In this document: positions 5,962 through 44,459 of the stretch, piece by piece
Numbering within the stretch: the stretch's first letter is position 1
Layout: each line of letters begins with the position of its first letter
Source: Gammaproteobacteria bacterium
GTDB taxonomy: Bacteria > Pseudomonadota > Gammaproteobacteria > SZUA-152
NCBI GenBank assembly: GCA_021647505.1
Contig: JAKIUN010000012.1
Span: 1 to 64,000, forward strand
Direction of reading: 5' to 3'
DNA length: 64,000 bases
Position numbers and translations under genes: made by a program
The notes under the pieces: generated by a model
What the model saw: the letters and a program-made list of their open reading frames with translations, nothing else
What the model was told of the DNA's origin: nothing
Database searches by the model: none

Positions 5962-6774
5962 TCAGACCTCGATGGGCGTATCAGGGCTATTGCCCCAGTC
6001 CGACCAGGAACCGGGGTAGCCCTTGATGTTCGGGTAGCCGAGTACCTTCAAGACGAAGTAGGTCAACGCCGAACGATGGTGAGTCTGGCAGTAAGTGATG
6101 ACGGTTTTGTCGCGGGTAATGCCCTTGCCTTCGAGCAGGGTACGTAGATCCATTGCGGTTTTCAGGCGCATATTGCGTGATCTGTCCATGACATCGAGCC
6201 AGTCGATGTTAAGGGCGCCGGGGATATGACCGCCGCGTTCGGCGAATTTCTTCTTGCCGCTGTATTCCAGAGCGGAACGGGAGTCCCACAGCACCACGCC
6301 GGGGTCGTTCAGATGGCTGAGGATGTAGTCGCGGCTGGCCAGCGGGGCATCGGTGATGTTGACCGCATATTTGCTCTGCGCCGGGTGGTGCGCGGTGATT
6401 TCTAGCGAGTGACCTTCGTTGGTCCAGCTGAACAGGCCACCATCGAGCAAGGAGGCCGTTTTGTGGCCGACGGTATCCAGGGTCCAGAGGAAGCGTGCCG
6501 CACGGCCGCCACCTTCGTCGTCATAGGCAACAACCTGTGTCTTCGGCGTGAGACCGATGGAAGAAAAAATGTTGCTCAGGCTGGTGGCGTCGGGCAGTAG
6601 GCCCATGCGCGGCCTGTCCAGGCGCACGATCTGTGCGTAGTCAAGATGTACCGCACCGGGGATGTGTCCCTTGGCGAAGGTTTCCGGCTTGCACAGATCG
6701 ACCACCAGCAGGCCGTCGTGGCCGAGCTTCTGCTCCAGTTGTTCGGGTTCGATGACGAGGGGCATGTTGTTCAT
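5962..6774 (-). CDS. Sulfurtransferase with two rhodanese domains
   Basis: CKPETFAKGHIPGAVHLDY, CQTHHRS active-site loop. Confidence 0.88.
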   Translation of the reverse strand: MNNMPLVIEPEQLEQKLGHDGLLVVDLCKPETFAKGHIPGAVHLDYAQIVRLDRPRMGLLPDATSLSNIFSSIGLTPKTQVVAYDDEGGGRAARFLWTLDTVGHKTASLLDGGLFSWTNEGHSLEITAHHPAQSKYAVNITDAPLASRDYILSHLNDPGVVLWDSRSALEYSGKKKFAERGGHIPGALNIDWLDVMDRSRNMRLKTAMDLRTLLEGKGITRDKTVITYCQTHHRSALTYFVLKVLGYPNIKGYPGSWSDWGNSPDTPIEV

Positions 6775-6780
6775 GGTTGG

Positions 6781-7911
6781 TTACTTCTCGTTATTCGTTT
6801 CAGTGGGTTCGTTGCCGGATATGGTAATGCCTGTGGTGGCGCTGGGGGTGAGGCCGGAGAGGCGCATCTGCAGGCGCATGTTACTCATGGAGTCGGCATA
6901 GGCGAGGGCGATTTCCTCGCTGATGCGGCCTTCGGCATACAGCTCGTAGAGCGATTGATCCATGGTGCGCATGCCGGTGTTGGCGTCTTTTTCCATCACG
7001 TCCACCAGTGAGATAAAGTCGCCGCGACGGATCAGGTCGCGCACGCGCGAGGTGGAGAGCAGCAGTTCCACGGCCACGGCGCGTCCGCCTTCGAGGGTAG
7101 GCACCAGTACCTGCGAGATCACGGCCTTGATATTCTGTGCCAGGGTGATGTAGAGCAGATCGCGCTTTTCCTGCGGGAACATGTTGACGATGCGCTCGAA
7201 TACCTGGCTGGCGTTATTGGCATGCAGGGTGGCCAGGCACAGGTGACCGGTGTCGGAGAACTCCAGTACGTCTTCCATGATTTCGTGTTCGCGAATCTCG
7301 CCGATCATCAGCATGTCCGGTGATTGGCGTAGGGCATTGATGAGGGCCTTGTGATACGAGTTGGTGTCGACGCCGATTTCGCGTTGATTTACCACCGACT
7401 GCTTGTGTTGCAGGATGTATTCGATGGGGTCTTCGACGGTGATGATATGGCTGATGGTGTTGCTGTTGCGGTGGTCGATCATCGCTGCCAGGGTGGTGGA
7501 CTTGCCGGCGCCGGATGGGCCAACTACCAGGATCAGACCCCGCTTGAGCATCACCAGATCCTGCAGCATGTCGGGCACACCCAGGGTCTCGAAATCGGGT
7601 ACTTCAAAGGGCACGGCGCGGATGACCATGCTGATCTCGCCACGCTGGCGGAAGACGTTGAAACGGAAGCGGCCGATGCCGGGTACGGTATAGCCGAGGC
7701 TGATCTCCAGTTCTTCCGCGAAGGCCTCGGCATGCTCCTTGCGCATCACCAGTTTGGCCATCTGATCCGTCATGCCCGGGGCCAATGGCTGAATGGGGTG
7801 GGGTTGCAGGGCACCGTTGATACGGAAGGCGGGGGGGGATCCCGTGCTCAGAAACAGATCCGAGGCGCCACTGGACACCATTTTTTTTAACAGTTTGGAA
7901 AGAAGCTCCAT
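6781..7911 (-). CDS. pilU: PilT/PilU-family type IV pilus retraction ATPase
   Basis: GPSGAGKSTTLAAMIDHRN Walker A, EDPIEY, GEIREHEIMEDVLEFSDTGHLCLATLHANNASQ. Confidence 0.9.
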   Translation of the reverse strand: MELLSKLLKKMVSSGASDLFLSTGSPPAFRINGALQPHPIQPLAPGMTDQMAKLVMRKEHAEAFAEELEISLGYTVPGIGRFRFNVFRQRGEISMVIRAVPFEVPDFETLGVPDMLQDLVMLKRGLILVVGPSGAGKSTTLAAMIDHRNSNTISHIITVEDPIEYILQHKQSVVNQREIGVDTNSYHKALINALRQSPDMLMIGEIREHEIMEDVLEFSDTGHLCLATLHANNASQVFERIVNMFPQEKRDLLYITLAQNIKAVISQVLVPTLEGGRAVAVELLLSTSRVRDLIRRGDFISLVDVMEKDANTGMRTMDQSLYELYAEGRISEEIALAYADSMSNMRLQMRLSGLTPSATTGITISGNEPTETNNEK

Positions 7912-8046
7912 GCCGTGTTACTACCTTTGTCTTTTTGAGTGGCGGAAAAAATGGAGCCTAGCATCAGGCATAGGCCGGGAACAGCGAGTGTAACAAAGTT
8001 TTCACCCCGGATTGAACTCGTGGAGAGGGTTGGGAAATGAATTGTG

Positions 8047-8219
8047 TCTGGGAGCCTCTTGCAAAACTCATGAGCGGCGATCGGCTTCCCCTCTTTGTCC
8101 CATTTCCGAGCTGGAATTTCGCTCCATGGAACCACCATGAAACTCATTCCATCCCGAAAATGGACTCAAAGTGGGATTGCCGCTCATCCATTCAGAGTTC
8201 TGCAAGAGGCTCCTGGGGA
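8047..8219. mobile_element. Full-length imperfect foldback (MITE-like) element
   Basis: GGAGCCTCTTGCAAAACTC..GAGCGGC.. at left versus ..GCCGCTC..GAGTTCTGCAAGAGGCTCC at right; the inner parts also pair. Confidence 0.65.
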
Positions 8220-8264
8220 CAGCGTATTGCCAGATAGAAATTGGCCGTGGGGTGAGCGAGGGCG

Positions 8265-8588
8265 TCAGGCGGTCTGTTTCAGCAGGGTTTCATGCAGGTA
8301 AATGACGTTTTCGGTTCTGCGCTGCGGGTGGACGACGGTTGGTTCGGTAGGTGCCGGGGTAATGGCGAGGATTTTGAACGCGTTGCCTGAGCCCTGAAAG
8401 GCCAGCATCAGGGTGAATTCCTCCAGGCGGTCGAGCCCGTCGTGCAGCATCAGTTCCAGTGCTTGGCGATCTCGTTTCGAGCAACTGCCGGGGAGGTTGT
8501 TCACGTTACTGCTTCCGTGTGAGGTTGCCTTTAATTTCGGCGTTGTCGTGCGGAAACTTGAATGCTCACTGTGGGCCTGACCCACCAA
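8265..8588 (-). CDS. Hypothetical protein
   Basis: ORF of 107 aa only; no recognised family. Confidence 0.3.
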   Translation of the reverse strand: MVGQAHSEHSSFRTTTPKLKATSHGSSNVNNLPGSCSKRDRQALELMLHDGLDRLEEFTLMLAFQGSGNAFKILAITPAPTEPTVVHPQRRTENVIYLHETLLKQTA

Positions 8589-8730
8589 GGGTGTATCGGC
8601 AGGAGCGCCCGGTGGGTGGTGCCCAACAAAAACGACATTACATTGGGTTTAAGGCCAAAATGGCCGGTCTCATCGCCGTCATGCGCAAGTGGGGGCCTGT
8701 GGAGAGGGAGAGAACTCTGCAATTTGTCGG

Positions 8731-9531
8731 TCAGCGCAGCAGGTCTTTTGTCAGGTGCGGGCGAATGGCCTGTAGGATGGCCTTGAAGACCTTGGGGTTA
8801 CCGGACACTAGGTTGCCGCTGTCAAGGAATTCATTGCCACCACCGAAGTCGCTTACCAGTCCGCCGGCCTCCTGCACCAGCAGTGCGCCGGCGGCGGAAT
8901 CCCAGGGACTGAGACCGATTTCCCAAAAACCGTCAAGACGCCCGGCCGCCACGTAAGCCAGATCCAACGCCGCAGAGCCGGGGCGGCGGATGCCGGCGGT
9001 CATGGGGAACAGGGCACGGAAGGTGGCCAGGTAGGCATCGAGGTGTTGCTGTTGCTTGAATGGAAAACCGGTGCCGAGCAGGGCGCCGTCCAGTCCGCGG
9101 CGCTTGCTGACGCGGATACGACGGTCATTGAGCTGCGCGCCGGCGCCGCGGCTGGCGGTGAACAGCTCCTGACGCGTGGGATCGTAGACCACCGCTTGCT
9201 CCAGCCGGCCGCGCACCTTGAGGGCGATGGAGACGGCGAACTGGGGAAAGCCATGCAGGAAATTGGTGGTGCCATCCAGTGGGTCGATGATCCACAGGTA
9301 TTCTTCATCACCATTCTGTTCACCGCTTTCCTCGGCGAGAATGCCGTGAGTCGGGAAGGCGTCGCGCAGGATGTCGATAATGATCTGTTCGGCCTGCTGA
9401 TCCACCTGGCTGACGAAGTCATTGGGAGCCTTGGTGACGATGTCGAGACGGTCGATGTCGTCGGCGGAGCGGGCGATATGGTTGCCGGCGCGGCGTGCGG
9501 CGCGAACCGCGATATTGAGCATGGGATGCAT
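8731..9531 (-). CDS. suhB: Inositol-1-monophosphatase family protein
   Basis: GILAEESGEQNGDEEYLWIIDPLDGTTNFLHGFPQFAVSIAL; start at MHPMLNIAVRAAR. Confidence 0.93.
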   Translation of the reverse strand: MHPMLNIAVRAARRAGNHIARSADDIDRLDIVTKAPNDFVSQVDQQAEQIIIDILRDAFPTHGILAEESGEQNGDEEYLWIIDPLDGTTNFLHGFPQFAVSIALKVRGRLEQAVVYDPTRQELFTASRGAGAQLNDRRIRVSKRRGLDGALLGTGFPFKQQQHLDAYLATFRALFPMTAGIRRPGSAALDLAYVAAGRLDGFWEIGLSPWDSAAGALLVQEAGGLVSDFGGGNEFLDSGNLVSGNPKVFKAILQAIRPHLTKDLLR

Positions 9532-11139: not shown

Positions 11140-13035
11140 TCAAGATGCTATGTTATTGCGCGAGACTTGGCAACCGTCATCCGCCAGCAGGGATTCTACG
11201 GCGTGGCGGATAGCGGCGGCGTCGAGCCCGCAGGCGCTGAGCAACTGCTGATGGTTGCCGTGCTCGACGAAGCGGTCGGGCAGACCGAGGTGGGTCATGG
11301 GCAGATTGATGCCGTGTGCCGCCAGGCATTCGCTCACCGCGCTGCCGGCGCCACCGGCGATGACATTTTCTTCCACGGTGACAAAGGCGCCGTGGGTCTT
11401 CGCCAGTTGCAGGATCAGGGCTTCGTCCAAGGGCTTGACGAAGCGCATGTTGACCACCGTGGCGCCGCTTTCCCGCCCGGCCTGTTCGGCGGCGGAGACC
11501 ATGCTGCCAAAGGCGAGGATGGCAACCCCTGTACCCTCCCGGCGTAGCTCGGCCTGACCGATGGGCAGGGTATCGAGATCCTGCGCCGGGAGGGTGCCAG
11601 GGCCGAAGCCGCGCGGGTAGCGTACCGCTGCGGGGCCATCGTGGTAAAAACCGGTGCTCAACATCTGCCGGCATTCGGCTTCGTCCGCTGGGGCCATGAT
11701 CAGCATATTGGGTACGCAGCGCAGGAAGCTGAGGTCGAGATTGCCGGCGTGAGTGGGGCCGTCGGCGCCCACTAGGCCGGCGCGGTCGATGGCGAAGAGT
11801 ATCGGCAGGTTTTGGATCGCCACGTCATGGATGAGTTGGTCGTAGGCGCGCTGCAGGAAGGTGGAATAGATAGCCACTACCGGCTTGAGGCCTTCGCAGG
11901 CCATGCCGGCGGCGAGGGTCACCGCATGTTGTTCGGCGATACCCACATCTTGATAACGGTCGGCATATTCTTCGGAAAAACGCACCAGCCCAGAGCCCTC
12001 GCGCATGGCGGGGGTGATGCCGATGAGACGTGGGTCGGCGTCGGCCATATCGCAGATCCAGTCACTGAACACCTGGGTGTAGGTGGGGCCGCTACCGCCG
12101 GCAGGGCGGCTCAGGGGTTCGCCGGTATCCGGGTCGTAGCTGCCGACGCCGTGGAAGGCGCAGGGGTTTTCCTCCGCCGGGGCGAAACCCTTGCCCTTCT
12201 TGGTGACTACATGCAGGAACTGCGGGCCTTTCAGTGACTTGAGGTTGCCCAGGGTCTTGATCAGGGTGTCGAGGTCGTGGCCATCGATGGGGCCGATATA
12301 GTTGAAGCCGAGTTCTTCGAACAGGGTGCCGGGGATCACCATGCCTTTCATGTGTTCTTCGGCGCGTTTGGCCAGCTCCCACATGTTGGGGATGGTGCTG
12401 AGTACCTTTTTCGAGCCCTCGCGGGCGGTGAGGTAGAGCTTGCCGGAGAGGATGCGCGCCAGGTAGTTGGATAGTCCGCCGACGTTGGCGGAGATGGACA
12501 TGTCGTTGTCGTTGAGTACCACCAGCAGGTTGGCATCCAGTGCTCCGGCGTGATTCAAGGCCTCGAAGGCCATGCCGGCGGTCATAGCGCCGTCACCAAT
12601 CACCGCCACCACCTCGCGTTTTTCATCGGCCTGCCGGGCGGCCAAGGCCATGCCCAGGGCGGCACTGATGGAGGTGCTGGAATGACCGACGCCGAAGGTG
12701 TCATAAGGACTTTCCTCGCGCTTGGGGAAGCCGGCGATGCCACCTTGCTGACGCAGGGTATCCATGCGCTCACGGCGGCCGGTGAGGATCTTGTGCGGAT
12801 AGCTCTGATGGCCTACGTCCCACACCAAACGGTCGTGGGGGGTATTGAACACGTAATGCAGGGCGATGGTGAGTTCCACTGTGCCCAGGCCAGAGGCCAA
12901 GTGCCCACCGGTTTGGCCCACCGACTGGATCAGAAATGCGCGCAGCTCGTCGGCCAGAGGGGCGAGCTGGTCTGACGCCAGTAGGCGCAGCTCGTCGGTG
13001 TCGTTGATGTGCTCCAGCAGGGGGAACTCGGACAT
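11140..13035 (-). CDS. dxs: 1-deoxy-D-xylulose-5-phosphate synthase
   Basis: Full-length 631 aa with [47 protein letters not shown]. Confidence 0.97.
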
Positions 13036-13366
13036 AGTTGGTTGGGCTGTCTGTTTGGGTTGGGTGTGCGGTGGTGCTTGAGCCCACGGGCTGTGGGGCG
13101 GGCAGCCAAGCTAAGCGGCGCATTATAGCGAAAAATCACTCCCATCGGGGACTCGTGCGGAGATTGAGGGTGAAATGGTTGGGTAATATGGCAAAATAGG
13201 CGCATCGGGCGAATCAGTTTTGGCGCCCGCTGCCTGTATTTCGGTACATCCTACTACCGAATTTTATAAACAATTGGGGATGTCTCCTGGGTAAGGGGCG
13301 CATCATCATTATTGCTGTCAGGGTGCCAGGCAGCCTGTTTCGGCAAATTAGTCATAGGGGCTGCCA

Positions 13367-14944
13367 GTGGATATGGAGGATGACAAGACCCGGGTTTCCC
13401 GCCGGCGTGCCCAGCCGACAAATTCGTCGGTTTCATCGCACGCCAATGGGATGGATCCGCGCGAGGGCATAGAGGAAAATGATAACACCCGGGTTTCTCG
13501 TCAGCATGTGCAGCCGGCCAACCCATCGGTTTTATCGCATGCCGGTGAGATGGACATGGAAGCGGAGAAGACTCGGGCTTTTCAGTCGCAGACTCGGCCG
13601 GTCAATCCATCGGTTGCATCGCAGGCCAGTGAGATAGGTTCGGGGGGGCTGATCAATAACCGCTTTCGCCTCGAATACATGCTGGGGCAGGGCGGCATGG
13701 GGGTTGTCTATGCCGCGCGGGATTTGCGCAAAGAGGAACTCGGTGATTCCGACTCGCGGATTGCAATCAAGCTGCTGTCGCAAAATGTCCAGCATCTGCC
13801 CAATGCGTTGCGTATGTTGCAGCAGGAATGTACAAAGGCACAGGAACTGGCCCATCCTAATGTTGTGACGGTCTATGATTTTGATCGGGATGGTGACATT
13901 GTTTACATGACGATGGAATTACTCGCCGGGCAGCCCCTGGGCAAGTACATGGCTGACAAGGAAGCCCCGGCATCCGGGCAGGATACACCTGTTGGTATCA
14001 GCGAACGCCTTTCTATTATCTCCGACATCGTACAAGGGCTGGCCTACGCCCACAAACGGGGTATTGTGCATTTCGACCTAAAACCCGGCAATGTTTTCAT
14101 TACGGAGGATGGCACGACAAAGATCCTGGATTTTGGTATTGCCCGTGCCGTACTGACCTCGGGTAACAAGACGGCGAGTGGTGCCCCTGGATTGTTTGAC
14201 GATATGATCGCGCTGACCCCCCCCTATGCCAGCCTGGAAATGCTTCGCGGCATGCCGCCAGATCCCCGCGATGATATTTATGCACTGGCGATTATTGCCT
14301 ATAAATTGCTGGCCGGGAAACACCCGTTCGACGAATTGTCGGCGATGGATGCTCTGCGCCAAAACCTGAAGCCGGAACGCATTCCGGGCCTGACAGACCG
14401 GCAATGGAAGGGGTTGTTGGGTGGTTTAGCCCTTCAGCGAGAGGATCGAACCCTTTCTGCCGAGGCGTTTCTCGAAGCCCTGTTGCCAAGCAAGGTTGAT
14501 CGCCGTTATTGGCTGGCCGTCGGCACGGCACTAACGGCGGTTGCTTTGAGTCTTTTTTTCTGGCTACAGCCTCCGCAAATCGTTGCCCCCAGCCTGTTTG
14601 AAAATCCACCGCCGGCGGCTGAACTGACCAAGGCAGACAGACAGCGGATCGAACAGTTGCTGGAAATCGCCGAGGTTCATATGATGGTCGGGCGCCTGAT
14701 TTCTCCTGCGGGCGCCAATGCACTTGATGTTTATAACCAAGTGCTTAGCATGCATCCCTACAACCGTCGGGCAATTCAGGGGCTGGAAACCGTATTGGAC
14801 AGGCTGGCGCAAGCTGCCGAGTCAGCACTAAGTGACGGCGAACGGCTCCGGGCCGAAAAATTGATAGACAGTGGGCTGACAATCTACCCACAACATAAAA
14901 AGCTACTAAATGTGAAACAACGGCTTAGCGAGGAAAAACCATGA
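13367..14944 (+). CDS. Membrane-anchored Ser/Thr protein kinase with three N-terminal repeats
   Basis: RFRLEYMLGQGGMGVVYAARD, IVHFDLKPGNVFI, KILDFGIA; TM WLAVGTALTAVALSLFFWL; three ~30-aa repeats containing DKTRVSR / DNTRVSR / EKTRAFQ. Confidence 0.92.
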   Translation: MDMEDDKTRVSRRRAQPTNSSVSSHANGMDPREGIEENDNTRVSRQHVQPANPSVLSHAGEMDMEAEKTRAFQSQTRPVNPSVASQASEIGSGGLINNRFRLEYMLGQGGMGVVYAARDLRKEELGDSDSRIAIKLLSQNVQHLPNALRMLQQECTKAQELAHPNVVTVYDFDRDGDIVYMTMELLAGQPLGKYMADKEAPASGQDTPVGISERLSIISDIVQGLAYAHKRGIVHFDLKPGNVFITEDGTTKILDFGIARAVLTSGNKTASGAPGLFDDMIALTPPYASLEMLRGMPPDPRDDIYALAIIAYKLLAGKHPFDELSAMDALRQNLKPERIPGLTDRQWKGLLGGLALQREDRTLSAEAFLEALLPSKVDRRYWLAVGTALTAVALSLFFWLQPPQIVAPSLFENPPPAAELTKADRQRIEQLLEIAEVHMMVGRLISPAGANALDVYNQVLSMHPYNRRAIQGLETVLDRLAQAAESALSDGERLRAEKLIDSGLTIYPQHKKLLNVKQRLSEEKP

Positions 14945-17031
14945 GAAATATCCGCAAGAATGTGCAAAAATATACAGCGTACGCGGGTTTTTCCCTAAAA
15001 TCCCTACAGCGCGGCATGATGGCGTTCGCTGTCACACTCACCGTCGGTTGTGCCGCAGGGCTGAACGGATCTGATAGTGCATTACAGCTTGAGGGCGACG
15101 CAGCGAAGATATCACCGGACAAATTCCTGCCTGTTGATTGTCTTCTGCCCCCGCAGGTGCGAAAACTTGGCGCACAAATGACCTATCTGGCCGCCCGCCG
15201 GCCGATCAAAACCACGGCGCTGAATTGTGAAATACGTGGCGGTGAATACGTTGCCTATGACCGGGCCGACTATCGCACCGCACTGAAAACCTGGCTGGAA
15301 CCGGCGAAACAAGGTAATGCCGAGGCACAGACCTATGTTGGCGAGATTTATGAAAAAGGTCTGGGTTTACCCGCCGACTACAAAACCGCCTTCACTTGGT
15401 ATTCGCGGGCGGCAGAGCAAAATTTTTCACGGGCGCAAATCAATCTGGGCTACCTGTATGAAAAAGGCCTGGGTGTTCCCCGGGATATGCTCAAGGCATT
15501 GAATTGGTACCGACTGGCATCGGGTATTCAGGACGACCATCTTGACTATTCCTCGAATATCGAGATCAAGGCATCCACGTTGGCGCAGGAACAAACCGAG
15601 GTACTGCGGCAGGAAATACAGCGGCGGGAGCAGCAAGTACAAGACTTGTCCACCTCCGTCGCCGACATGGAGAAACAGCTACAGCAACGTGAAAATACGT
15701 TGCAGAGCGCAAGGCAGCAACTCGCACAACTGAATGATAAAATAACGCAGGATCAGGAAGATGCCACGCACCTGAGCGAGCTGAAGGCGGCCTATGCCGC
15801 ACAGCAAAAGCGTATTGCTCAAACGCAGGCTGCGGTGGTTGCGCTACAGTCGCAGATGTTGCAGGTGCGCACGCAGGTGACGCGACAGACAGGCAACCTG
15901 ACGACCCAGCGGCAAATGCTGGCGATGCAGGATATCGCCGGCCCCTCCATTGAGGTGTTTGACCCCGTGATTGTGGTGACCCGGGGTAGCGGGCCGGTAG
16001 TGCGGGTTCCGCCGGGCAATAAGGTGCGTAGCATCAAAGGGAGAATTACAGCCCCGGCAGGGCTGAAACGGGCATCCATCAATGGTGAGTCGTTAGCCAT
16101 CGACGGTGAAGGCATTTTCCAGGCAACCGTACCCGTTGAGAGCAAGGCAGAAGTCTCGATATTGGCCACCGACAAGCAAGATCGGACGGCCAGTTTTTCT
16201 TTTGTCATGGAGCCTGCCCGCCACATGGTTGCGCAGGATAACCGTATTTCCCGGATTGGCGTGGCGGCCAAAGGTGTTAATTTTGGACGCTACTTCGCAT
16301 TGGTTATCGGCAATAATGACTACTCACAATTCCCCACACTTGAGACCGCCGTTAATGATGCACAGCGAGTGGCTGCGGTGCTGCAATCTGATTACGGTTT
16401 TGATACACAGCTTATTCTCAACGCAGACAGGTATGCGATTCTTTCGGCACTGAATGATCTTCGCGGGCAGCTGACGGAGGCCGATAACCTGCTGATTTAC
16501 TATGCCGGTCACGGTGAGCGGGATCCGGAAACCTTGCAGGGATACTGGCTGCCAGTGGATGCCGAACAGGCAAATACCGCCAACTGGATAGCCAATTCGA
16601 CCATCTCTGATTTACTCAACACATTCAAAGCCAAGCATATTCTAGTGGTTGCCGACTCTTGTTATTCCGGCTCCATGACGCAAAGCTCGGTGGCGCGTAT
16701 TGACACCCAACTGGATGATGAACATCTGAAAAAGTGGCTGAAAGTCATGGCGAAAACACCCTCCCGCACCGTGTTGACATCCGGTGGTGTCAGCCCTGTG
16801 CTGGATGGCGGCGGCGGTGAGCATTCTGTTTTTGCCAAGGCCTTTATTCAGGAACTGGAACAAGACACCGGTATTATCGATGCGTATAAAATCTACCTGG
16901 GGGTGTCGGGGCAAGTCAAAACACAAGCGGCATCCATCGGGTTTATACAGCGGCCGACGTATGCGCCTATTCGCCATACGGGCCATAACGGGGGTGAATT
17001 CATTTTCGTTAAAGAGAGGGAAGAGGGGTGA
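14941..17031 (+). CDS. Lipoprotein-like caspase-family (C14) protein with Sel1 repeats and coiled coil
   Basis: Lipobox-like LTVGC; Sel1 repeats GNAEAQTYVGEIYEKGLGLPADYKTAFTWYSRAAEQ; caspase LVIGNNDY..., LIYYAGHGERD (His), VVADSCYSG (Cys). Confidence 0.9.
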   Translation: MRNIRKNVQKYTAYAGFSLKSLQRGMMAFAVTLTVGCAAGLNGSDSALQLEGDAAKISPDKFLPVDCLLPPQVRKLGAQMTYLAARRPIKTTALNCEIRGGEYVAYDRADYRTALKTWLEPAKQGNAEAQTYVGEIYEKGLGLPADYKTAFTWYSRAAEQNFSRAQINLGYLYEKGLGVPRDMLKALNWYRLASGIQDDHLDYSSNIEIKASTLAQEQTEVLRQEIQRREQQVQDLSTSVADMEKQLQQRENTLQSARQQLAQLNDKITQDQEDATHLSELKAAYAAQQKRIAQTQAAVVALQSQMLQVRTQVTRQTGNLTTQRQMLAMQDIAGPSIEVFDPVIVVTRGSGPVVRVPPGNKVRSIKGRITAPAGLKRASINGESLAIDGEGIFQATVPVESKAEVSILATDKQDRTASFSFVMEPARHMVAQDNRISRIGVAAKGVNFGRYFALVIGNNDYSQFPTLETAVNDAQRVAAVLQSDYGFDTQLILNADRYAILSALNDLRGQLTEADNLLIYYAGHGERDPETLQGYWLPVDAEQANTANWIANSTISDLLNTFKAKHILVVADSCYSGSMTQSSVARIDTQLDDEHLKKWLKVMAKTPSRTVLTSGGVSPVLDGGGGEHSVFAKAFIQELEQDTGIIDAYKIYLGVSGQVKTQAASIGFIQRPTYAPIRHTGHNGGEFIFVKEREEG

Positions 17032-17097
17032 TAGTGCGCTGAATTTTGTTTCGGCTGTCTTTATATTTTCTATACTCTCTATGCACGCTTAAGCCAT

Positions 17098-17173
17098 GTA
17101 GGGTGGGCAGGCTTTTCATGCCCACGTGGAATATCCGTCAACCGCGTGGGCACAAAAAACGTGCCCACCCTAC
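17098..17173. repeat. Dispersed GTAGGGTGGGCA... repeat, copy 1
   Basis: Near-identical ~75 bp copy at 44164-44238; contains GTGGGCACAAAAAACGTGCCCAC hairpin. Confidence 0.8.
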
Positions 17174-17183
17174 CAAACTTTTT

Positions 17184-18026
17184 ATGGGGAGCCGTCAGGG
17201 TCAGTGCATTACAGTCATGTTGTTGGCGCTACTGTCTGGCGCCTGCACCACCCCTGCGGCGCGCAATGACTCGTTTGCTGCAGCTAATGGTTTTACGCGT
17301 CAGATTGTCACCGGGGCTGACTTTTCGCATCTTGTTTTTATGGCTAACAAGCGTGCTGACACCCGCAACGAAGAAAGTCTGTGGCATGTCTATATTGAAG
17401 GAGACGGCACCCCTTGGGTTCGGCGGCATGTTGTCGCCACTGATCCCACGTCAGCAGAGCCGCTGATGCTGCAATTAATGGCGCAGGATCCGTACCCAGC
17501 CATTTATCTGGGCAGGCCCTGCTATCACGGACTGGCCAGAGACTCGGCCTGCAACCCCTGGCTGTGGACCTATGGGCGCTATTCAGAGCAAGTCGTTGAG
17601 AGCATGAGCGCGGCATTGGCTTCATTAGTCAGTGAAAATGCCATTAGCTCTCTGGTGCTGATCGGTCATAGCGGGGGAGGGACGTTGGCCATGCTGCTTG
17701 CGGAGCGGGTGCCCCAGGCCCGGCTTGTTGTGACACTGGCCGGAAATCTGGACATAGACGCATGGACGGCTCGGCATGGTTATACAAAACTGGTGCATTC
17801 ATTAAATCCGGCCCATCGTCCATCTTTGCCACGTCATATTTATCAGTTGCACTATGTAGGTCGGGACGACAGCAACGTGCCACCGAAAATGCTTGAGGTC
17901 GCTGTCAGTCAACAAAGAAATGCCAAGGTGTTCGTGCTGGATGGTTTGAGACATGAGCATGGCTGGGGCGATTTTTGGGTGGAAATTCTACACAAAATAG
18001 ATATTGCGGAGAGGGATTATGAATAA
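17184..18026 (+). CDS. Lipoprotein alpha/beta hydrolase
   Basis: Signal/lipobox MLLALLSGACTT; nucleophile elbow LIGHSGGGTLAMLLA; C-terminal DGLRHEHGW. Confidence 0.8.
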   Translation: MGSRQGQCITVMLLALLSGACTTPAARNDSFAAANGFTRQIVTGADFSHLVFMANKRADTRNEESLWHVYIEGDGTPWVRRHVVATDPTSAEPLMLQLMAQDPYPAIYLGRPCYHGLARDSACNPWLWTYGRYSEQVVESMSAALASLVSENAISSLVLIGHSGGGTLAMLLAERVPQARLVVTLAGNLDIDAWTARHGYTKLVHSLNPAHRPSLPRHIYQLHYVGRDDSNVPPKMLEVAVSQQRNAKVFVLDGLRHEHGWGDFWVEILHKIDIAERDYE

Positions 18027-20529
18027 TCTCATAGGGTTATTTTCAAACGCTGAGGCTTGGAGATTCAGCAAGAAGTCTTTTTCTCTGCCGGCATTTTCAT
18101 TGAGCATATTTTCTCAGATGTTTCTGCTTATCCTAGGCTTTTGTGTGGTGAGAACAGGTTTGGCGGTGGAGCATGAGGGGCTTCGAATAACGGACATTGC
18201 GCAAGCTCCAGGTAACCCTGTTACATCCGGCGATATCGTACGCTATACGCTCATGGTGGAAAATACCGATGTCCAGAGATTTGCCGAAATTCGGATAACC
18301 TCGGCGGGACAAAATGCTAACGGCTCATTTACGTCGGATGAATGCTATGACGCGGGATACGGCACAGGTTTTTACTGCCCGGAAGGAATCAATGCCGGCC
18401 AGTCAATACAGTATACCTTTACCTGGCAGCCGCCCGAGGGACATCTCGACCTTGCATTTACTGTTGACTGTTCATCTAACTGCGTGGGGAATACTTACTC
18501 CGTTTCGACGAATGTCATCCAGCCCTCTCCGGGCACTATTCAATTTAGCAGCGCCGATTATCAGGTCAGCGAAGAAGACGGCCGGGCGGCAATAACGGTG
18601 ACGCGAACCGGTGGCAGCGCAGGTGCGTTGTGGGTTCGCGTATTGGCGGGTGGAGAGGGCGACACGGCGACAACGGCGGATTATTCCTTCCAGATGACAG
18701 AGGCGCCTGATGTACTCAGTTGGTCTGATGGCGACATGGCGACTAAAACCTTGAACATCGATATTGTGGCCGATTCACTGGTGGAGGGAGACGAAACCCT
18801 AACCCTTACGCTACAAGACCTACCCCTCGGACAATCAGAAGGCACAGAAAAAAATGCCGCTGCAGAGAGAGTCGGAAATGTACAAGCCAATGCGATAGGC
18901 AGCCTCAGTCAGGCAACGTTAACCATCAAGGACTCAACGATCGACCCGCCGGCGGTGGATCAGATCAAGGCCATTTCCGGCAATGATCAGCGAGGTGCAC
19001 CGGAAGACATCCTGGCACCCTTTGTTATCACTGCCGTCGATGCCTCAGGGAATCCCGTTGCTGGGGTGTCTGTTGACTGGGAAGTCTTGCCTGCGAGTGG
19101 GGGGACGCTAGAACAGACACGGCCAACGGTGACCGATGCCGATGGCCGATCCAGTAACACACTGACTCTGGATATATTTGACCGCCTGATTGTAAAGGCT
19201 ACTGTGGGCTCGGATTTTGTCACTTTTGTGGTCAATGGTGGCATCGCTGAGCAGCCAGGGCTCACGGGAAATCAGCGCTCCGTGGCAAGGGCGATGGATA
19301 CCATGTGCCTCGCCCTGAAGAAAATGGCAGGAGCGGAAGAAGTGTTGAGTTCCGGGCAGGGAGACTTGCTGGCAACCTGCCGACGCCTGGAGGTCGATGA
19401 TCCGGGGGTGGTTGCTGCGAATCTGGATCTCCTGGCCCACGAGGAGGTATCGGCCCAGGGCCGGGTTGTTATCGAGACTGCCAAGCTTCAGTCTGCGAGT
19501 ATCCACAGACGGCTGACGGCCCTGCGGGCTGGCGCGCGGGGTGTCAGTCTCTCGGGCCTGACGATCAACATCGATGGACAGACCCTGCCTGAATCCGTTG
19601 TTTCTGCGCTATTTGGCAGTGGGGCGCGAGGTGGCTCGGCGGGTGAGGAGGCGCAGGGTATTGCCAGCCGCTGGGGCGCCTTTATCAATGCCAATGTCAT
19701 TATCGGCGACAGGGATAAAACAGATCGGGGGACGGGGTTCGACTTCCGTGCCCGGGGGGTCACCGCCGGCGCCGACTACCGCATATCCGATGCACTGGTC
19801 GTGGGTAGCGCCTTGGGTTATGCCAGCAAGGATTCCGATTTTAAAGGCGATGCCGGTAATCTGGAGATGGACAGTTGGCATCTGGCGGCCTACGGCAGCT
19901 ACTACCAGTCAGAAAGATTCTATTTGGATGGTCTGCTCAGACTGGGCAGAAATAATATCGATACCGACCGCCGAATCAATTTGCCGGGTGATCCCCAGCA
20001 GGAGGGCGTAGGCAGTACGACCGGCTGGGAATATGCCTTTAGTCTGAGTGGCGGCTATGAATATAGCCGCAATGCGTTGACTGCCGGCCCCTATGGGCGG
20101 TTGGGATTTATTCAGACCTCTATTGATGGTTACACGGAGTCAGCCTCGAATCCCGGTGGTGCGGGTGCCGGCTCGATATTGGTGATTGATGATCAGGATG
20201 TGGATTCCATAACAGCGGTACTGGGTGGCCAGGTCACTTACGCGATCAGTGCCCGTAATGCGGTGTATCTATTGCAGATCAATGGTGAGTGGGAGCATGA
20301 GTTTACAGATAATTCACGCGCCATCGCTGCGCAATTTGTCTATGACCCGACTCGCACCAGTTTTGATATTCGCTCGGACAATCCCGACCGGAACTACTTT
20401 AACCTGGGCCTGGGTGTGACGGCGGTTTTCGCCAATGGCCGGTCAGGATTTCTTCATTATGAAAGCCGGTTGGGACAGGATAATGTCCGGCAGTACTGGA
20501 TCAATGGGGGTATCAGGATAGAGTTATAG
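18019..20529 (+). CDS. Autotransporter with Calx-beta-like and Ig-like passenger and C-terminal beta-barrel
   Basis: YQVSEEDGRAAITVTRTGG...DSLVEGDETLTLTLQD (Calx-beta); DASGNPVAGVSVDWEVLP (Ig-like); SRWGAFINANVIIGDRD..TAGADYRISDALVVGSALGYA...YWINGGIRIEL (autotransporter barrel). Confidence 0.88.
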   Translation: MNNLIGLFSNAEAWRFSKKSFSLPAFSLSIFSQMFLLILGFCVVRTGLAVEHEGLRITDIAQAPGNPVTSGDIVRYTLMVENTDVQRFAEIRITSAGQNANGSFTSDECYDAGYGTGFYCPEGINAGQSIQYTFTWQPPEGHLDLAFTVDCSSNCVGNTYSVSTNVIQPSPGTIQFSSADYQVSEEDGRAAITVTRTGGSAGALWVRVLAGGEGDTATTADYSFQMTEAPDVLSWSDGDMATKTLNIDIVADSLVEGDETLTLTLQDLPLGQSEGTEKNAAAERVGNVQANAIGSLSQATLTIKDSTIDPPAVDQIKAISGNDQRGAPEDILAPFVITAVDASGNPVAGVSVDWEVLPASGGTLEQTRPTVTDADGRSSNTLTLDIFDRLIVKATVGSDFVTFVVNGGIAEQPGLTGNQRSVARAMDTMCLALKKMAGAEEVLSSGQGDLLATCRRLEVDDPGVVAANLDLLAHEEVSAQGRVVIETAKLQSASIHRRLTALRAGARGVSLSGLTINIDGQTLPESVVSALFGSGARGGSAGEEAQGIASRWGAFINANVIIGDRDKTDRGTGFDFRARGVTAGADYRISDALVVGSALGYASKDSDFKGDAGNLEMDSWHLAAYGSYYQSERFYLDGLLRLGRNNIDTDRRINLPGDPQQEGVGSTTGWEYAFSLSGGYEYSRNALTAGPYGRLGFIQTSIDGYTESASNPGGAGAGSILVIDDQDVDSITAVLGGQVTYAISARNAVYLLQINGEWEHEFTDNSRAIAAQFVYDPTRTSFDIRSDNPDRNYFNLGLGVTAVFANGRSGFLHYESRLGQDNVRQYWINGGIRIEL

Positions 20530-20593
20530 TGCTGCAAAAAATAAGTGCAGGCAGGGCTGTCAACATAATTGTTATGGAATGAAGGTGTGTTTG

Positions 20594-21172
20594 ATGAAAA
20601 TTGTGCTGCTTCGGCATGGTAGGCCTGAAATGGAAGCGCCAGGTAAATTAAAAGCAAGCGAGCTTCATCGATGGATAAACTCTTATAATTCCGCCGGAAT
20701 TCATCAAAATAGTCAACCTTCAGCTGGCGCTCTTAAATTGGCAAAAAAGTGTAAGGTGGTGGTATGCAGTGATTTGCCTCGCTCTATAGAGTCTGCGGAG
20801 TTGCTTGGTATCGAGAAAATTGATTACACCGATCCGTTATTTAGGGAAATGGGATTGCCCTACGCAAATTGGCCTACCCCAAAAGCACCCCCGCTTTTTT
20901 GGGCAGGCATATTTCGGTTGCTTTGGTTCTGTGGGTATTCCTCCAATGGTGAGGCATTTTCATTGGCAAAGCGCAGGGCTCTAAAAGGTGCGGATAAGCT
21001 GGAAGTTATAGCAAAAGATAAAGGCTCAGTCCTTCATGTTGGGCATGGATTCATGAACAGATATATTTCTAAAGCCCTTCTTGCAAAAGGCTGGGTTGGC
21101 CCTCAATCAGCGGGTAGAAAATATTGGGAGTTTGGGGTTTATAAATACCACACTAGCTCCTGCGATGGATGA
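20594..21172 (+). CDS. Histidine phosphatase family protein
   Basis: MKIVLLRHGRPE; CSDLPRSIESAELL; VLHVGHG. Confidence 0.85.
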   Translation: MKIVLLRHGRPEMEAPGKLKASELHRWINSYNSAGIHQNSQPSAGALKLAKKCKVVVCSDLPRSIESAELLGIEKIDYTDPLFREMGLPYANWPTPKAPPLFWAGIFRLLWFCGYSSNGEAFSLAKRRALKGADKLEVIAKDKGSVLHVGHGFMNRYISKALLAKGWVGPQSAGRKYWEFGVYKYHTSSCDG

Positions 21173-22043
21173 TGTACTCAGCGATATCGCGCAGGGGTTG
21201 CCCGGCACCACCCAGCGGCGCGAGACTGTCCAGCGCCTCCTGATGCAGGTCGCGGGCCATGTGCTTGGCCTCGTCCATGCCTACCAGCGCTGGGTAGGTG
21301 GGCTTGCAGCCAGCCTGGTCGCTGCCCTGTGGCTTGCCGAGGGTGGCGGTATCTCCCTCAATGTCGAGGATGTCGTCGCGGATCTGGAAGGCCAGCCCCA
21401 TGCATTTGGCGTAGTGATCCAGCTGCTCCAGCAGCATCGTGTCGCTGCCAGGCTGGCTGAGGGCGCCGAGGCGCACGCTGGCACGGATCAGTGCGCCGGT
21501 CTTGTGGATGTGCATGTCTTCCAGCTCGGCGAGCGTAATCTCACGGCCGGCGGCGGCAAGGTCGATAGCCTGGCCGCCGGCCATGCCGCGTGAACCCGAG
21601 GCCAGGGCCAGGGTTTCTACCATCTGCAGGCGCCGGGCAGGATCGTCGAGCATTTGCGGGTCGTGGGCGAGGATATAAAAGGCCAGCGATTGCAGGGCAT
21701 CGCCCACCAGCATCGCGGTGGCCTCATCGAAGGCGATGTGGGTGGTGGGCTTGCCGCGACGCAGGTCGTCGTCGTCCATGGCGGGAAGATCGTCATGCGC
21801 CAGCGAATAGACATGGATCAGCTCCAGTGCACAGGCCGGACCGTCGAGCCGGGCCAGCGGTGCTCCGAGGGCTACGCCGGTCATGTAGGCCAGCGCCGGG
21901 CGGATGCGCTTGCCGCCGTCCAGTGACGCGTAGCGCATGGCCTCGTGCAGGCGGCTGGGCAGAATCCGGGCTGCGGGCAGCCAATGCTGCAGGGCCTGTT
22001 CGGTACGGGCCTGATAGGTGCTCAGTAGTGTCGACAGACTCAT
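21153..22043 (-). CDS. ispA: Polyprenyl (farnesyl) diphosphate synthase
   Basis: MRYASLDGGKRIRPAL, HVYSLAHDDLPAMDDDDLRRGKPT, FQIRDDILDIEGD. Confidence 0.96.
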   Translation of the reverse strand: MSLSTLLSTYQARTEQALQHWLPAARILPSRLHEAMRYASLDGGKRIRPALAYMTGVALGAPLARLDGPACALELIHVYSLAHDDLPAMDDDDLRRGKPTTHIAFDEATAMLVGDALQSLAFYILAHDPQMLDDPARRLQMVETLALASGSRGMAGGQAIDLAAAGREITLAELEDMHIHKTGALIRASVRLGALSQPGSDTMLLEQLDHYAKCMGLAFQIRDDILDIEGDTATLGKPQGSDQAGCKPTYPALVGMDEAKHMARDLHQEALDSLAPLGGAGQPLRDIAEYIIHRRS

Positions 22044-25585: not shown

Positions 25586-25762
25586 ATGTCAACAGTAAAG
25601 CAAGACGTGAAAGAACTCATCGATCATCTACCCGAAGATGCCAGCATCGAGGATATTCAATACCACCTCTATGTATTGGAAAAGATCCGCCGGGGGCAGG
25701 CGGATATCCGCAATGGACGACATTTCAGCAGAAAGGAAGCCAAGGAGCGGCTAAATGTGTAG
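25586..25762 (+). CDS. Antitoxin-like protein (RelB/Phd-type partner of a RelE/ParE toxin)
   Basis: Translated by hand: MSTVKQDVKELIDHLPEDASIEDIQYHLYVLEKIRRGQADIRNGRHFSRKEAKERLNV*; the stop codon lies in the adjacent REP sequence. Confidence 0.6.
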   Translation: MSTVKQDVKELIDHLPEDASIEDIQYHLYVLEKIRRGQADIRNGRHFSRKEAKERLNV

Positions 25763-26488
25763 GTTGGGGTGAGGAACGAACCCCAACAAGGGCGGCGAAA
25801 AAACTCATGGAGATGAGGAATGCACTATCGACGGAGCGATATCGCAGGCGGAACGTATTTCTTTACTGTAAACCTGGCGGAACGGGAACGCACATTATTG
25901 ACTGGTTACGCGAACATCTTACGCGAAGTAATACGCACGGTGAAAGAGAGGCGACCCTTCGATATCGACGCCATGGTTGTTCTCCCCGATCATTTGCATA
26001 TGTTGTGGACATTGCCTGATGGCGACCATGATTTTGCCACCCGGTTGATGTTGATAAAGGCGGGCTTTTCCCGCTCGATGGACAAGGGTGAACCCCAGGG
26101 CGCAAGCCGCTTGTCCAAGGGTGAACGCGGAATATGGCAACGACGGTATTGGGAGCACCTGATTCGGGATGAACGGGATTTTGAAAATCACGTGAATTAT
26201 ATTCATTACAACCCGGTAAAACATGGCCATGTCGAGCGCGCAGTAGATTGGAAGTTTTCGAGTATTCATTGTTATATCAAGACCGGGATTTTGAGTGAGG
26301 ATTGGGGTTGTGGTGAGGCTGTCTCCGAAAGCGGTGAATTTGGCGAGCGTTGATGAAATTGTTGGGGTTCGTTCCTCACCCCAACCTACGGAGAAATACC
26401 AGAATGTAGGTTGATGAGCGCAGCGAACCCCAACGCGGTGGTCGATAAAGGAAGAATGTTGGGGTTCATGATGTTCATCCCAACCTAC
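25757..26488 (+). mobile_element. REP/RAYT element with flanking REP sequences
   Basis: Exact 29-bp inverted pair GTAGGTTGGGGTGAGGAACGAACCCCAAC (25759-25787) / reverse complement (26361-26389), plus variant copies at 26406-26434 and 26458-26488. Confidence 0.75.
25820..26353 (+). CDS. REP-associated tyrosine transposase (Y1_Tnp)
   Basis: DIDAMVVLPDHLHMLWTLPDGD (HUH-type HLH), WQRRYWEHLIRDERDFENHVNYIHYNPVKHG. Confidence 0.93.
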   Translation: MHYRRSDIAGGTYFFTVNLAERERTLLTGYANILREVIRTVKERRPFDIDAMVVLPDHLHMLWTLPDGDHDFATRLMLIKAGFSRSMDKGEPQGASRLSKGERGIWQRRYWEHLIRDERDFENHVNYIHYNPVKHGHVERAVDWKFSSIHCYIKTGILSEDWGCGEAVSESGEFGER

Positions 26489-26807: not shown

Positions 26808-27374
26808 ATGGATCGCAATACGTACCGAGGGCGGCTGGAACGCTGGAATGATGACAAGGGTTTTGGTTTTGTCCGGCCAGAGAATTCATCCAAGGACATT
26901 TTCATTCACATATCGGCCTTGAAGAACGTGAGTCGTCGGCCCGTTGTCGGAGATGTGATTTCTTTTCGCGTGGAAACGGATGACAAGGGCAAATTCCGGG
27001 CAGCCAATGCAACAATTGCTGGTATTCCGATCATCAAACCCAGATCGGCAAAGATACGCGGGAAGAGAAAGAAAGGACGTTCATCCCCATTCTCTGGATT
27101 GGTTCTGCTTGTGGTGATCGGTGTTACTGGTTATGCCGGGTTTGACAGCTGGAAATCCCGGCAGGCTGTGGCGGTAAGCAATGCCGGGGCCATTGTGGAG
27201 CCTGTTCCCGAAAAGCGAGACAATGCTGAGGGCTATCAATGCGACGGCAGAACGCATTGTTCACAGATGACGTCTTGTGAAGAGGCTAAATTTTTCATCC
27301 GCAATTGCCCTAATACAAAGATGGATGGAGATGGTGATAGGGTGCCCTGTGAACATCAGTTTTGCGGCCGCTAG
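26808..27374 (+). CDS. Cold-shock-domain protein with TM helix and C-terminal excalibur-like domain
   Basis: RGRLERWNDDKGFGFVRPENSSKDIFIHISAL (CSD); SGLVLLVVIGVTGYAGF (TM); YQCDGRTHCSQMTSCEEAKFFIRNCPNTKMDGDGDRVPCE (excalibur). Confidence 0.88.
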   Translation: MDRNTYRGRLERWNDDKGFGFVRPENSSKDIFIHISALKNVSRRPVVGDVISFRVETDDKGKFRAANATIAGIPIIKPRSAKIRGKRKKGRSSPFSGLVLLVVIGVTGYAGFDSWKSRQAVAVSNAGAIVEPVPEKRDNAEGYQCDGRTHCSQMTSCEEAKFFIRNCPNTKMDGDGDRVPCEHQFCGR

Positions 27375-27375
27375 T

Positions 27376-27794
27376 GTAGGTTGGGGTGAGAAACGAACCC
27401 CAACATTTTCAAGCCGGAAAACTCATGGAGATGAGAGATACAATATCGACGGGCCGATATCGCAGGTGGAACCTATTTCTTCACCGTAAACCTGGCTGAT
27501 CGGAGACACACGTTGCGGGTAGATCATGCTGATCTGTTGCGAACGGTGATACGCAAAGTGAAGGAGAAACATCCATTTGATATCGATGCCATGGTTGTTC
27601 TTCCTGATCATCTGCACATGTTGTGGATCTTGCCAAAAGGGGATGCTGATTTCCCAAGGTGGATGATGTTGATAAAGGCCAGTTTTTCCCGCTTGGTGGA
27701 AAAAGGTGAATATCAGAGTGCAAGCCGATTATCCAAAGGCGAACGGGGAATATGGCAGCGTCGGTATTGGGAACACTCAATCTGGGATGAATAG
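27376..27794 (+). pseudogene. Second RAYT transposase copy, decayed (start ATG to ATA, premature stop)
   Basis: ATACAATATCGACGG... parallels ATGCACTATCGACGG... of copy 1; HPFDIDAMVVLPDHLHMLWILPKGD...WQRRYWEHSIWDE*; preceded by the same REP sequence. Confidence 0.85.
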
Positions 27795-27945
27795 AATTTC
27801 GTCAGAGAGGGTATATATGTCAAGGGTTGGGGTGGTGATTTCAATGCGCCGGATACCGGGTTTGGCGAATAAACCGTAGGGTGGGCATTGCCCATCCTAC
27901 GAATGATTCTGGATTTTATAAATAGTTACGATAAGCTATCTTATT

Positions 27946-43938: not shown

Positions 43939-44163
43939 GGCGTTCCTTTTTTCTGGCGGTTTTTGGGATACGTTTGTTATGACGAGAGCGGTCATGTATT
44001 GCCAGGGGATGTCCCGTGCATGGTGCGCTGCCCCAAGACGTGCATGATAACGAACCTGAGGTTCAATCGACAGAATTGTGTTGGCTTGATTCACGCTGTA
44101 GATCCCACGACTGTCGAACTGGCGTTGGATACCCCTGAGATGTATGAATTCGCCAGCAGCCAT

Positions 44164-44238
44164 GTAGGGTGGGCACGTTTTTTGTGCCCACGTGAAATAT
44201 GCGCCAACCGCGTGGGCACAAAAAACGTGCCCACCTTA
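44164..44238. repeat. Dispersed GTAGGGTGGGCA... repeat, copy 2
   Basis: Near-identical to 17098-17173. Confidence 0.8.
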
Positions 44239-44459
44239 ACACGGCTTTTACCGCCTGCCGACAGGAAAAGGCAGGCAAAAACAGGCTATTAAGATCATGG
44301 CTATGTTTAAAAACAATGCGTTAAATGCGACAAAGTAGAACTAAAGTGCCCCAGAGCAGCCGGGTTATGGTGAGCCGAAGAAAAATAGAGGTGTCCTTCA
44401 GTCTCGCCCGTTATACTGTGCGATCCATTTCAAGGTGCTTTTTGAGAACGGTGCTTCAC

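Follow-up and report, generated by a model that had tools for sequence, protein, structure and literature searches.

The question raised by this locus is whether four neighbouring genes lie side by side by chance or form a system, and, if the latter, what such a system might do across the cell envelope. The genes lie in a window, i.e. the whole stretch of DNA analysed here, of 64,000 nucleotides (positions 1 to 64,000, forward strand, of contig JAKIUN010000012.1, assembly GCA_021647505.1) from a gammaproteobacterium of the GTDB lineage SZUA-152. A sequence-only reading had singled out four consecutive same-strand genes, and all four are intact, neighbouring open reading frames (ORFs), found on the + strand where it had placed them:

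13367 to 14944, + strand: KIN, a Ser/Thr protein kinase (Pfam Pkinase, 9.2e-37)
14941 to 17031, + strand: CASP, a predicted lipoprotein with a C-terminal caspase (C14) domain (Pfam Sel1, 3.6e-21; Peptidase_C14, 8.5e-24; family alignment)
17184 to 18026, + strand: HYD, a predicted lipoprotein alpha/beta serine hydrolase (GHSGGG; lipobox Cys21; Foldseek matches to alpha/beta hydrolases from a weak model)
18019 to 20529, + strand: AT, a type Va-like autotransporter (Pfam Autotransporter, 2.7e-52; subfamily alignment)

Both gene overlaps had also been read correctly: the KIN stop and the CASP start share the 4 nt ATGA, and HYD, whose stop codon (18024–18026) lies inside AT, overlaps by 8 nt with AT, which begins at the ATG at 18019, so that KIN–CASP and HYD–AT are two tight pairs. 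When compared with the relative G002, the ratio of non-synonymous to synonymous substitution rates (dN/dS) is 0.19 for KIN, 0.13 for CASP, 0.17 for HYD and 0.27 for AT, with 0.11 for dxs as a control; these low values mean that all four genes are under purifying selection.

Whether the four genes belong together can be asked of other genomes, and conserved co-occurrence, which the sequence-only reading had set as a check, is what is found there: the neighbourhood is kept within the family and recurs, reordered, in many other families. In a class-wide sample of 369 gammaproteobacterial genomes, searched with profiles for HYD (A1), CASP (A2) and the AT subfamily (A3), CASP occurs in 29 genomes (counting full-length, contig-truncated or N-domain-bearing forms), 28 of which carry the AT subfamily; HYD occurs in 51, strongly in 26, and the AT subfamily in 33. 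CASP and AT occur together in 28 genomes (Fisher 8e-36), CASP and HYD in 21 (3e-23), and AT and HYD in 24 (4e-28). Because the A3 profile was built from linked copies, the search was repeated with the single AT sequence of the window, which found 36 genomes, i.e. the A3 set and three weak ones; with the same outcome from a single-sequence query, circularity of the profile is ruled out as the source of the co-occurrence. Since the genomes are related, these p values overstate independence, and linkage at the level of families is the safer argument.

Such linkage was scored, with all six-frame ORFs labelled, at loci that encode a full-length CASP; beyond the host family, these represent 15 GTDB families. 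The genome set includes many metagenome assemblies, the family labels are GTDB-derived codes, and some loci stop at contig edges, absences making the counts lower bounds on linkage. Within 10 kb of CASP, KIN is found in 12 of the 15 families (f10, f37, f46, f53, f63, f71, f80, f81, f101, f131, f141 and f145), AT likewise in 12 (f37, f46, f63, f71, f80, f81, f101, f131, f141, f145, f168 and f185) and HYD in eight (f10, f37, f46, f63, f80, f131, f141 and f168). With a background of 3–12 kinases per genome (about 5), KIN and CASP would be linked by chance at about 3% of loci; rough binomial tails are 6e-17 for KIN, 8e-23 for AT and 5e-15 for HYD. All four genes occur together in seven families, the host's included. 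Their order is KIN-CASP-HYD-AT in f1 and f131, AT-KIN-CASP-HYD at locus L056, HYD-KIN-CASP at L058 and HYD-AT-KIN-CASP at L151; AT-CASP is followed by a reversed HYD and then KIN at L150, KIN-CASP lies with a divergent HYD-AT at L157 and L158, and CASP is divergent from AT at L178 and L179. That membership is kept while order shuffles argues for a functional unit rather than frozen synteny, and KIN, CASP, HYD and AT almost certainly form a real conserved unit. Outside Gammaproteobacteria the full module was not found, a phylum draw of 378 giving only matches to the caspase end in other classes. That the genes are chance neighbours in one genome has nothing in its favour beyond a repetitive extragenic palindromic (REP) element separating the two gene pairs; permuted recurrence and matching presence/absence profiles rule it out, the empty ispA–dxs site described below speaks against it as well, and we reject it as having a negligible probability.

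Among close relatives, CASP is found at high identity in ten GTDB loci, with KIN in view in nine, and at most of these loci HYD and AT follow CASP, with the order unchanged, as far as the contig reaches. HYD is present in 13 of 24 genomes of the family, always directly downstream of CASP; a 4.3-kb contig holds CASP in G021, the only CASP genome of the family without HYD. Within the host genus (g1), two genes outside the module enclose the four-gene block:

11140 to 13035, − strand: dxs, one flank of the insertion site, adjoining ispA without the module in G006 and G005
21153 to 22043, − strand: ispA, the other flank of the insertion site

In the sister genus (g6) the same block lies upstream of a purD-like gene, and in module-less g6 genomes ispA also adjoins dxs. 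The two module-less congeners G006 and G005, whose dxs genes are 89–90% identical, have an uninterrupted xseB–ispA–dxs, the gaps measuring about 205 and 105 bp; on the dxs side, the gap sequence matches window positions 13122–13138. The ispA–dxs site is empty in G006, G005, G014 and G016, and the four genes are gained or lost as a block. A histidine-phosphatase-family gene also lies between AT and ispA (20579–21172, + strand), overlapping the 3′ end of ispA by 20 nt. It was rejected as a part of the module, being absent from the relatives G002 and G003, and is therefore another gene inserted at this site.

CASP consists of a conserved VDCLLP N-domain, two Sel1 repeats, a coiled coil, an immunoglobulin (Ig)-like domain and the C-terminal caspase domain, with the following features:

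15049 to 15051, + strand: lipobox Cys37 of CASP (Cys in 38 of 38 full-length homologues)
15937 to 16215, + strand: Ig-like beta-sandwich domain of CASP (predicted structure; no Pfam annotation in the window protein)
16294 to 16962, + strand: caspase catalytic domain of CASP (Pfam C14; codons of His524 at 16510–16512, Asp572 at 16654–16656 and Cys574 at 16660–16662)

The C14 domain scores 85.0 bits against a curated cut-off of 21.4, and the His524–Cys574 dyad and Asp572, two residues before the cysteine, are kept in 38/38 homologues, as are two more cysteines (67 and 96); homologues are about 580 to 1065 aa long, most of the variation lying in the coiled coil. The Ig-like domain, modelled with a predicted local distance difference test (pLDDT) score of about 75–87 over most of its length, matches fibronectin/Ig-like modules, and a weak Glucodextran_B match lies at this domain in a caspase-less CASP relative. 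The model of residues 330–696 is weak (mean pLDDT 55) and, like that of HYD, supports a fold class only. In E. coli, lipoprotein sorting is set by the residue after the lipobox cysteine (the +2 rule). This residue is never Asp in the CASP sequences shown, so that CASP is expected to be sorted to the outer membrane as a lipoprotein. Asp two residues before the catalytic cysteine is a metacaspase/paracaspase-type S1 residue, from which we infer that CASP would cleave after Arg or Lys; orthocaspases cleave after positive residues (PMC6426788). The caspase is rather likely to be active in the periplasm.

A kinase next to a caspase could also suggest a cell-death or anti-phage defence system, and PADLOC kinase models do match KIN (PD-T4-6, 4e-57), as its caspase model matches CASP (6e-13). 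These matches, however, concern general domains, with none for AT and one at chance level for HYD, and the system-level gene set is absent. Moreover, CASP is a predicted exported lipoprotein, the flanking genes are housekeeping genes, viral contigs contain no relative and 72,556 plasmids contain no near-full-length copy, all of which makes a defence function very unlikely.

For HYD, Pfam gives weak alpha/beta-hydrolase matches (Lipase_3, 1e-4) with the GHSGGG elbow, and a weak structure model (mean pLDDT 53) has alpha/beta hydrolases as its Foldseek matches. The triad Ser163/Asp229/His257 is kept in 36/36 homologues together with Cys113 and Cys123, and the lipobox Cys21 in 35 of the 36. A lipobox cysteine conserved near the N-terminus of both CASP and HYD, together with the conserved neighbourhood, supports the unrecognised envelope-spanning four-gene system that the sequence-only reading had suspected; judged by these sequence patterns, neither the caspase nor the hydrolase is placed in the cytoplasm. 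Its start for HYD was too far upstream, running through the REP element:

17092 to 17199, no strand assigned: REP palindrome GTAGGGTGGGCA between CASP and HYD (inverted arms 17098–17129 and 17142–17173; second copy at 44158–44265)

Because this segment is a REP element, the start is the in-frame ATG at 17184 and not the TTG at 17046; the REP copy has apparently replaced the original start region of the gene and supplies the present one. In the same genus, the CASP–HYD gap holds the same REP in G002, a different palindrome in G003 and none in G004. The spacing is therefore lineage-specific, and the REP was inserted later, separating two pairs whose genes are tightly coupled. A palindrome related to this REP sits after AT in G002. 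Elsewhere in the window, a gene for a REP-associated tyrosine transposase (NF047646, 4e-57; 25820–26353) has inverted REP-like copies around it (25757–25789, 26354–26389 and 27374–27411), and a diverged second copy of the transposase DNA, without a full-length ORF, is found at 27418–27799.

KIN is composed of N-terminal DxxTR(V) repeats of the DDKTRV type, the kinase domain, one probable transmembrane (TM) helix and a TPR-like C-terminus. What had been called a C-terminal repeat region is, more correctly, a TPR-like segment with a shared motif; the short DxxTR(V) repeats sit at the N-terminus. The TM helix was read from the sequence:

14507 to 14566, + strand: probable TM helix YWLAVGTALTAVALSLFFWL of KIN

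Its hydropathy is slightly below the 1.9 cut-off in the window and above it in relatives (1.91 at L065, 1.97 at L056 and 2.29 at L144), and KIN is probably a single-pass kinase with a periplasmic, TPR-like C-terminus. HxD and DFG are intact in 35/35 linked kinases and the VAIK lysine is present in 33, the other two having an alignment gap there. Most module kinases have the C-terminal motif GRL-x2-P-x-G-x-NA-x3-Y in common, and most linked ones the longer module LL-x2-AE-x-H-x4-GRL-x2-P-x-G-x-NA. The host genome has six FHA-domain matches.

In AT, a variable passenger with Calx-beta (4e-11) and Big_1 (4e-9) domains precedes a conserved pre-barrel stalk with two cysteines and a C-terminal beta-barrel:

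19705 to 20526, + strand: AT beta-barrel (Pfam PF03797; dN/dS 0.06)

Against G002 the passenger is relaxed (dN/dS 0.41) and the barrel strongly conserved. With a barrel match of 178.5 bits, a passenger and a predicted export signal (hydrophobic stretch at residues 25–43), AT has the make-up of a type Va autotransporter; by sequence, the barrel is nearest to that of EstA (PDB 3kvn, E 1e-26). Passengers in the AT subfamily are absent or almost absent, Calx-beta, Big_1, Big_9/cadherin or HYDIN-type Ig. The host genome encodes a second member of this subfamily (G000:C92:5722-6915), and other genomes have up to four copies; at L063 (G019) the AT reading frame (6408–8914) is split into several, reflecting either decay or an assembly error.

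Natural variants point to CASP as the hub of the module. In f85, a CASP relative of 327 aa, which has the N-domain and two Sel1 repeats, ends in an Ig-like domain and lacks coiled coil and caspase, adjoins AT; such caspase-less relatives lie beside AT at L164:8816-9796 and at L165:9088-10071, where the contig end holds a fragment of AT. In the loci examined, the kinase is found only beside caspase-bearing CASP. CASP would be the hub because its co-variation with AT is the tightest, its non-catalytic part alone is kept beside AT and the kinase accompanies only the caspase-bearing form; a physical interaction of CASP and AT seems likely. A 1743-aa fusion on the Azospirillum sp. B510 plasmid pAB510d (L184:3711-8942), which joins a two-partner secretion (TPS, type Vb)/filamentous-haemagglutinin secretion domain to an Ig-like and a caspase end and has similar genes on three other Azospirillum plasmids, again links a caspase of this kind with a surface protein of type V. 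HYD in turn adjoins AT without CASP in G142, G268, G362 and G267, and the two are also neighbours in G123, on a separate contig. In f37 and f81 the module is joined by a PP2C phosphatase as well as by an OmpA-like protein, and at L156, L158 and L159 it also lies near Crp-like cyclic-nucleotide (cNMP)-binding regulators and PP2C phosphatases. CASP–AT and HYD–AT pairs without a kinase, and an OmpA-like protein adjoining CASP in f37 and f81, would suit a surface-protein biogenesis set in which CASP, HYD and OmpA-like helpers mature or anchor AT, while the kinase adjusts expression or is a loose neighbour. KIN, however, is near CASP in as many families as AT is, and the module kinases have a conserved periplasmic module in common, so that we regard this possibility as quite improbable.

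What, then, might the unit do? The best explanation, to which we would give slightly less than an even chance, is that a caspase specific for Arg/Lys and tethered to the outer membrane acts, under the control of the kinase, on AT or together with it. AT would be an outer-membrane barrel displaying a variable surface passenger, on which CASP, an outer-membrane lipoprotein cutting after Arg or Lys, could dock via its N-domain, Sel1 repeats and Ig domain. Single-pass KIN would sense or control CASP via the TPR-like end in the periplasm; in the cytoplasm, the kinase domain would tie this to the state of the cell, perhaps with FHA proteins recruited by the DxxTR tails. HYD, as a second outer-membrane lipoprotein, might hydrolyse or trim an ester carried by AT or by the membrane close to it. 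The net outcome would be a surface protein that is processed, retained or released under kinase control. That the kinase gates rather than purely senses is nearly an even call, falling just short of one, and AT as the substrate of CASP is somewhat more doubtful.

The main rival, which fits nearly as well, reverses the direction: the AT passenger would bind something at the surface and its state would be relayed to CASP in the periplasm, CASP or its product would be read by the TPR-like domain and the kinase would signal inward, making AT a receptor and not a substrate. Widely varying passengers on a constant stalk and barrel are as expected for a receptor, the kinase carries a periplasmic module, and PP2C is found near it in f37, f81 and f63. 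Sensing, however, is not obviously in need of a catalytic caspase, yet the catalytic residues are invariant in 38/38 homologues, and several ATs are almost without a passenger; on balance this outside-in relay is unlikely.

Kinase-controlled processing of AT also has several points against it. The structure models of HYD and CASP are weak, and differing kinase catalytic domains among lineages suggest replacement within the kinase slot. A conserved R-x2-LR stretch before the AT barrel, considered as a cleavage site and not claimed as one, may be general to such autotransporters. CASP and AT occur without a linked kinase in f185, f168 and, caspase-less, in f85, and f75 has CASP, HYD and AT, yet unlinked; kinase and hydrolase are thus not obligate.

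What most bacterial caspase homologues do physiologically is, to our knowledge, not known, and they are usually discussed in terms of intracellular cell death. The module gives a lipoprotein caspase named partners, one of them a transmembrane kinase and the other an autotransporter at the surface, as well as a testable substrate, and so moves the question into the envelope. If the proposal is true, a bacterial caspase has an extracytoplasmic job, and Gram-negative kinase signalling may extend to the cell surface. Since the block is mobile as a unit, absent at a clean site in close relatives and represented by natural variants, the roles of its genes are genetically separable.

Each part of the module has its counterpart elsewhere. 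Like PknB-type Ser/Thr kinases, KIN has a kinase domain, one TM helix and an extracytoplasmic C-terminus; unlike them, it carries the TPR-like GRL-PPGxNA module in place of PASTA domains, a Pfam search finding no PASTA repeats and NF033483 scoring 185.8 bits, below its cut-off of 450. CASP has the C14 fold, His–Cys dyad and D-S-C motif of prokaryotic caspase homologues, metacaspases and orthocaspases (PMC3501461, PMC6426788), its own features being the predicted outer-membrane lipoprotein architecture, the VDCLLP N-domain, the long coiled coil and the Ig domain. The 2012 survey of prokaryotic caspases counts Sel1 among the common partner domains and lists many operons, and its text does not mention autotransporters (PMC3501461). 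AT has a C-terminal beta-barrel as do EstA-like type Va autotransporters (PDB 3kvn), but no esterase passenger; it has instead a Cys-pair stalk and a variable Ig-like passenger, and the hydrolase is a separate lipoprotein. In polymorphic-toxin systems, releasing caspases (PMC3482391) are likewise caspase-like peptidases linked to surface or secreted proteins, whereas CASP is encoded as a separate lipoprotein; none of the four proteins has a toxin domain in Pfam, AT ends in its barrel and no immunity gene was recognised in the block.

At the level of the whole system, the closest likeness is to LapD–LapG–LapA, in which cyclic di-GMP (c-di-GMP) exerts inside-out control of an adhesin (PMC3032545), with an inner-membrane signalling protein, an extracytoplasmic cysteine protease and a surface adhesin in one circuit such as the one proposed here. 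The module differs in its Ser/Thr kinase, its predicted caspase-fold outer-membrane lipoprotein, its type Va autotransporter and its extra lipoprotein hydrolase, and Pfam finds no LapG-type protease, GGDEF/EAL receptor or type I-secreted adhesin domains in the four proteins; the two would be analogous, not homologous. In the open-access literature we found no description of the module, subscription papers and preprints lying outside that coverage. Only tentatively do we suggest a widespread gammaproteobacterial circuit, an independently evolved counterpart of Lap in which a Ser/Thr kinase acts across the inner membrane to control an outer-membrane caspase, which in turn would edit an autotransporter or release it. 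Overall, the module appears to be new as a system and not as a set of proteins, each of its parts belonging to a known family.

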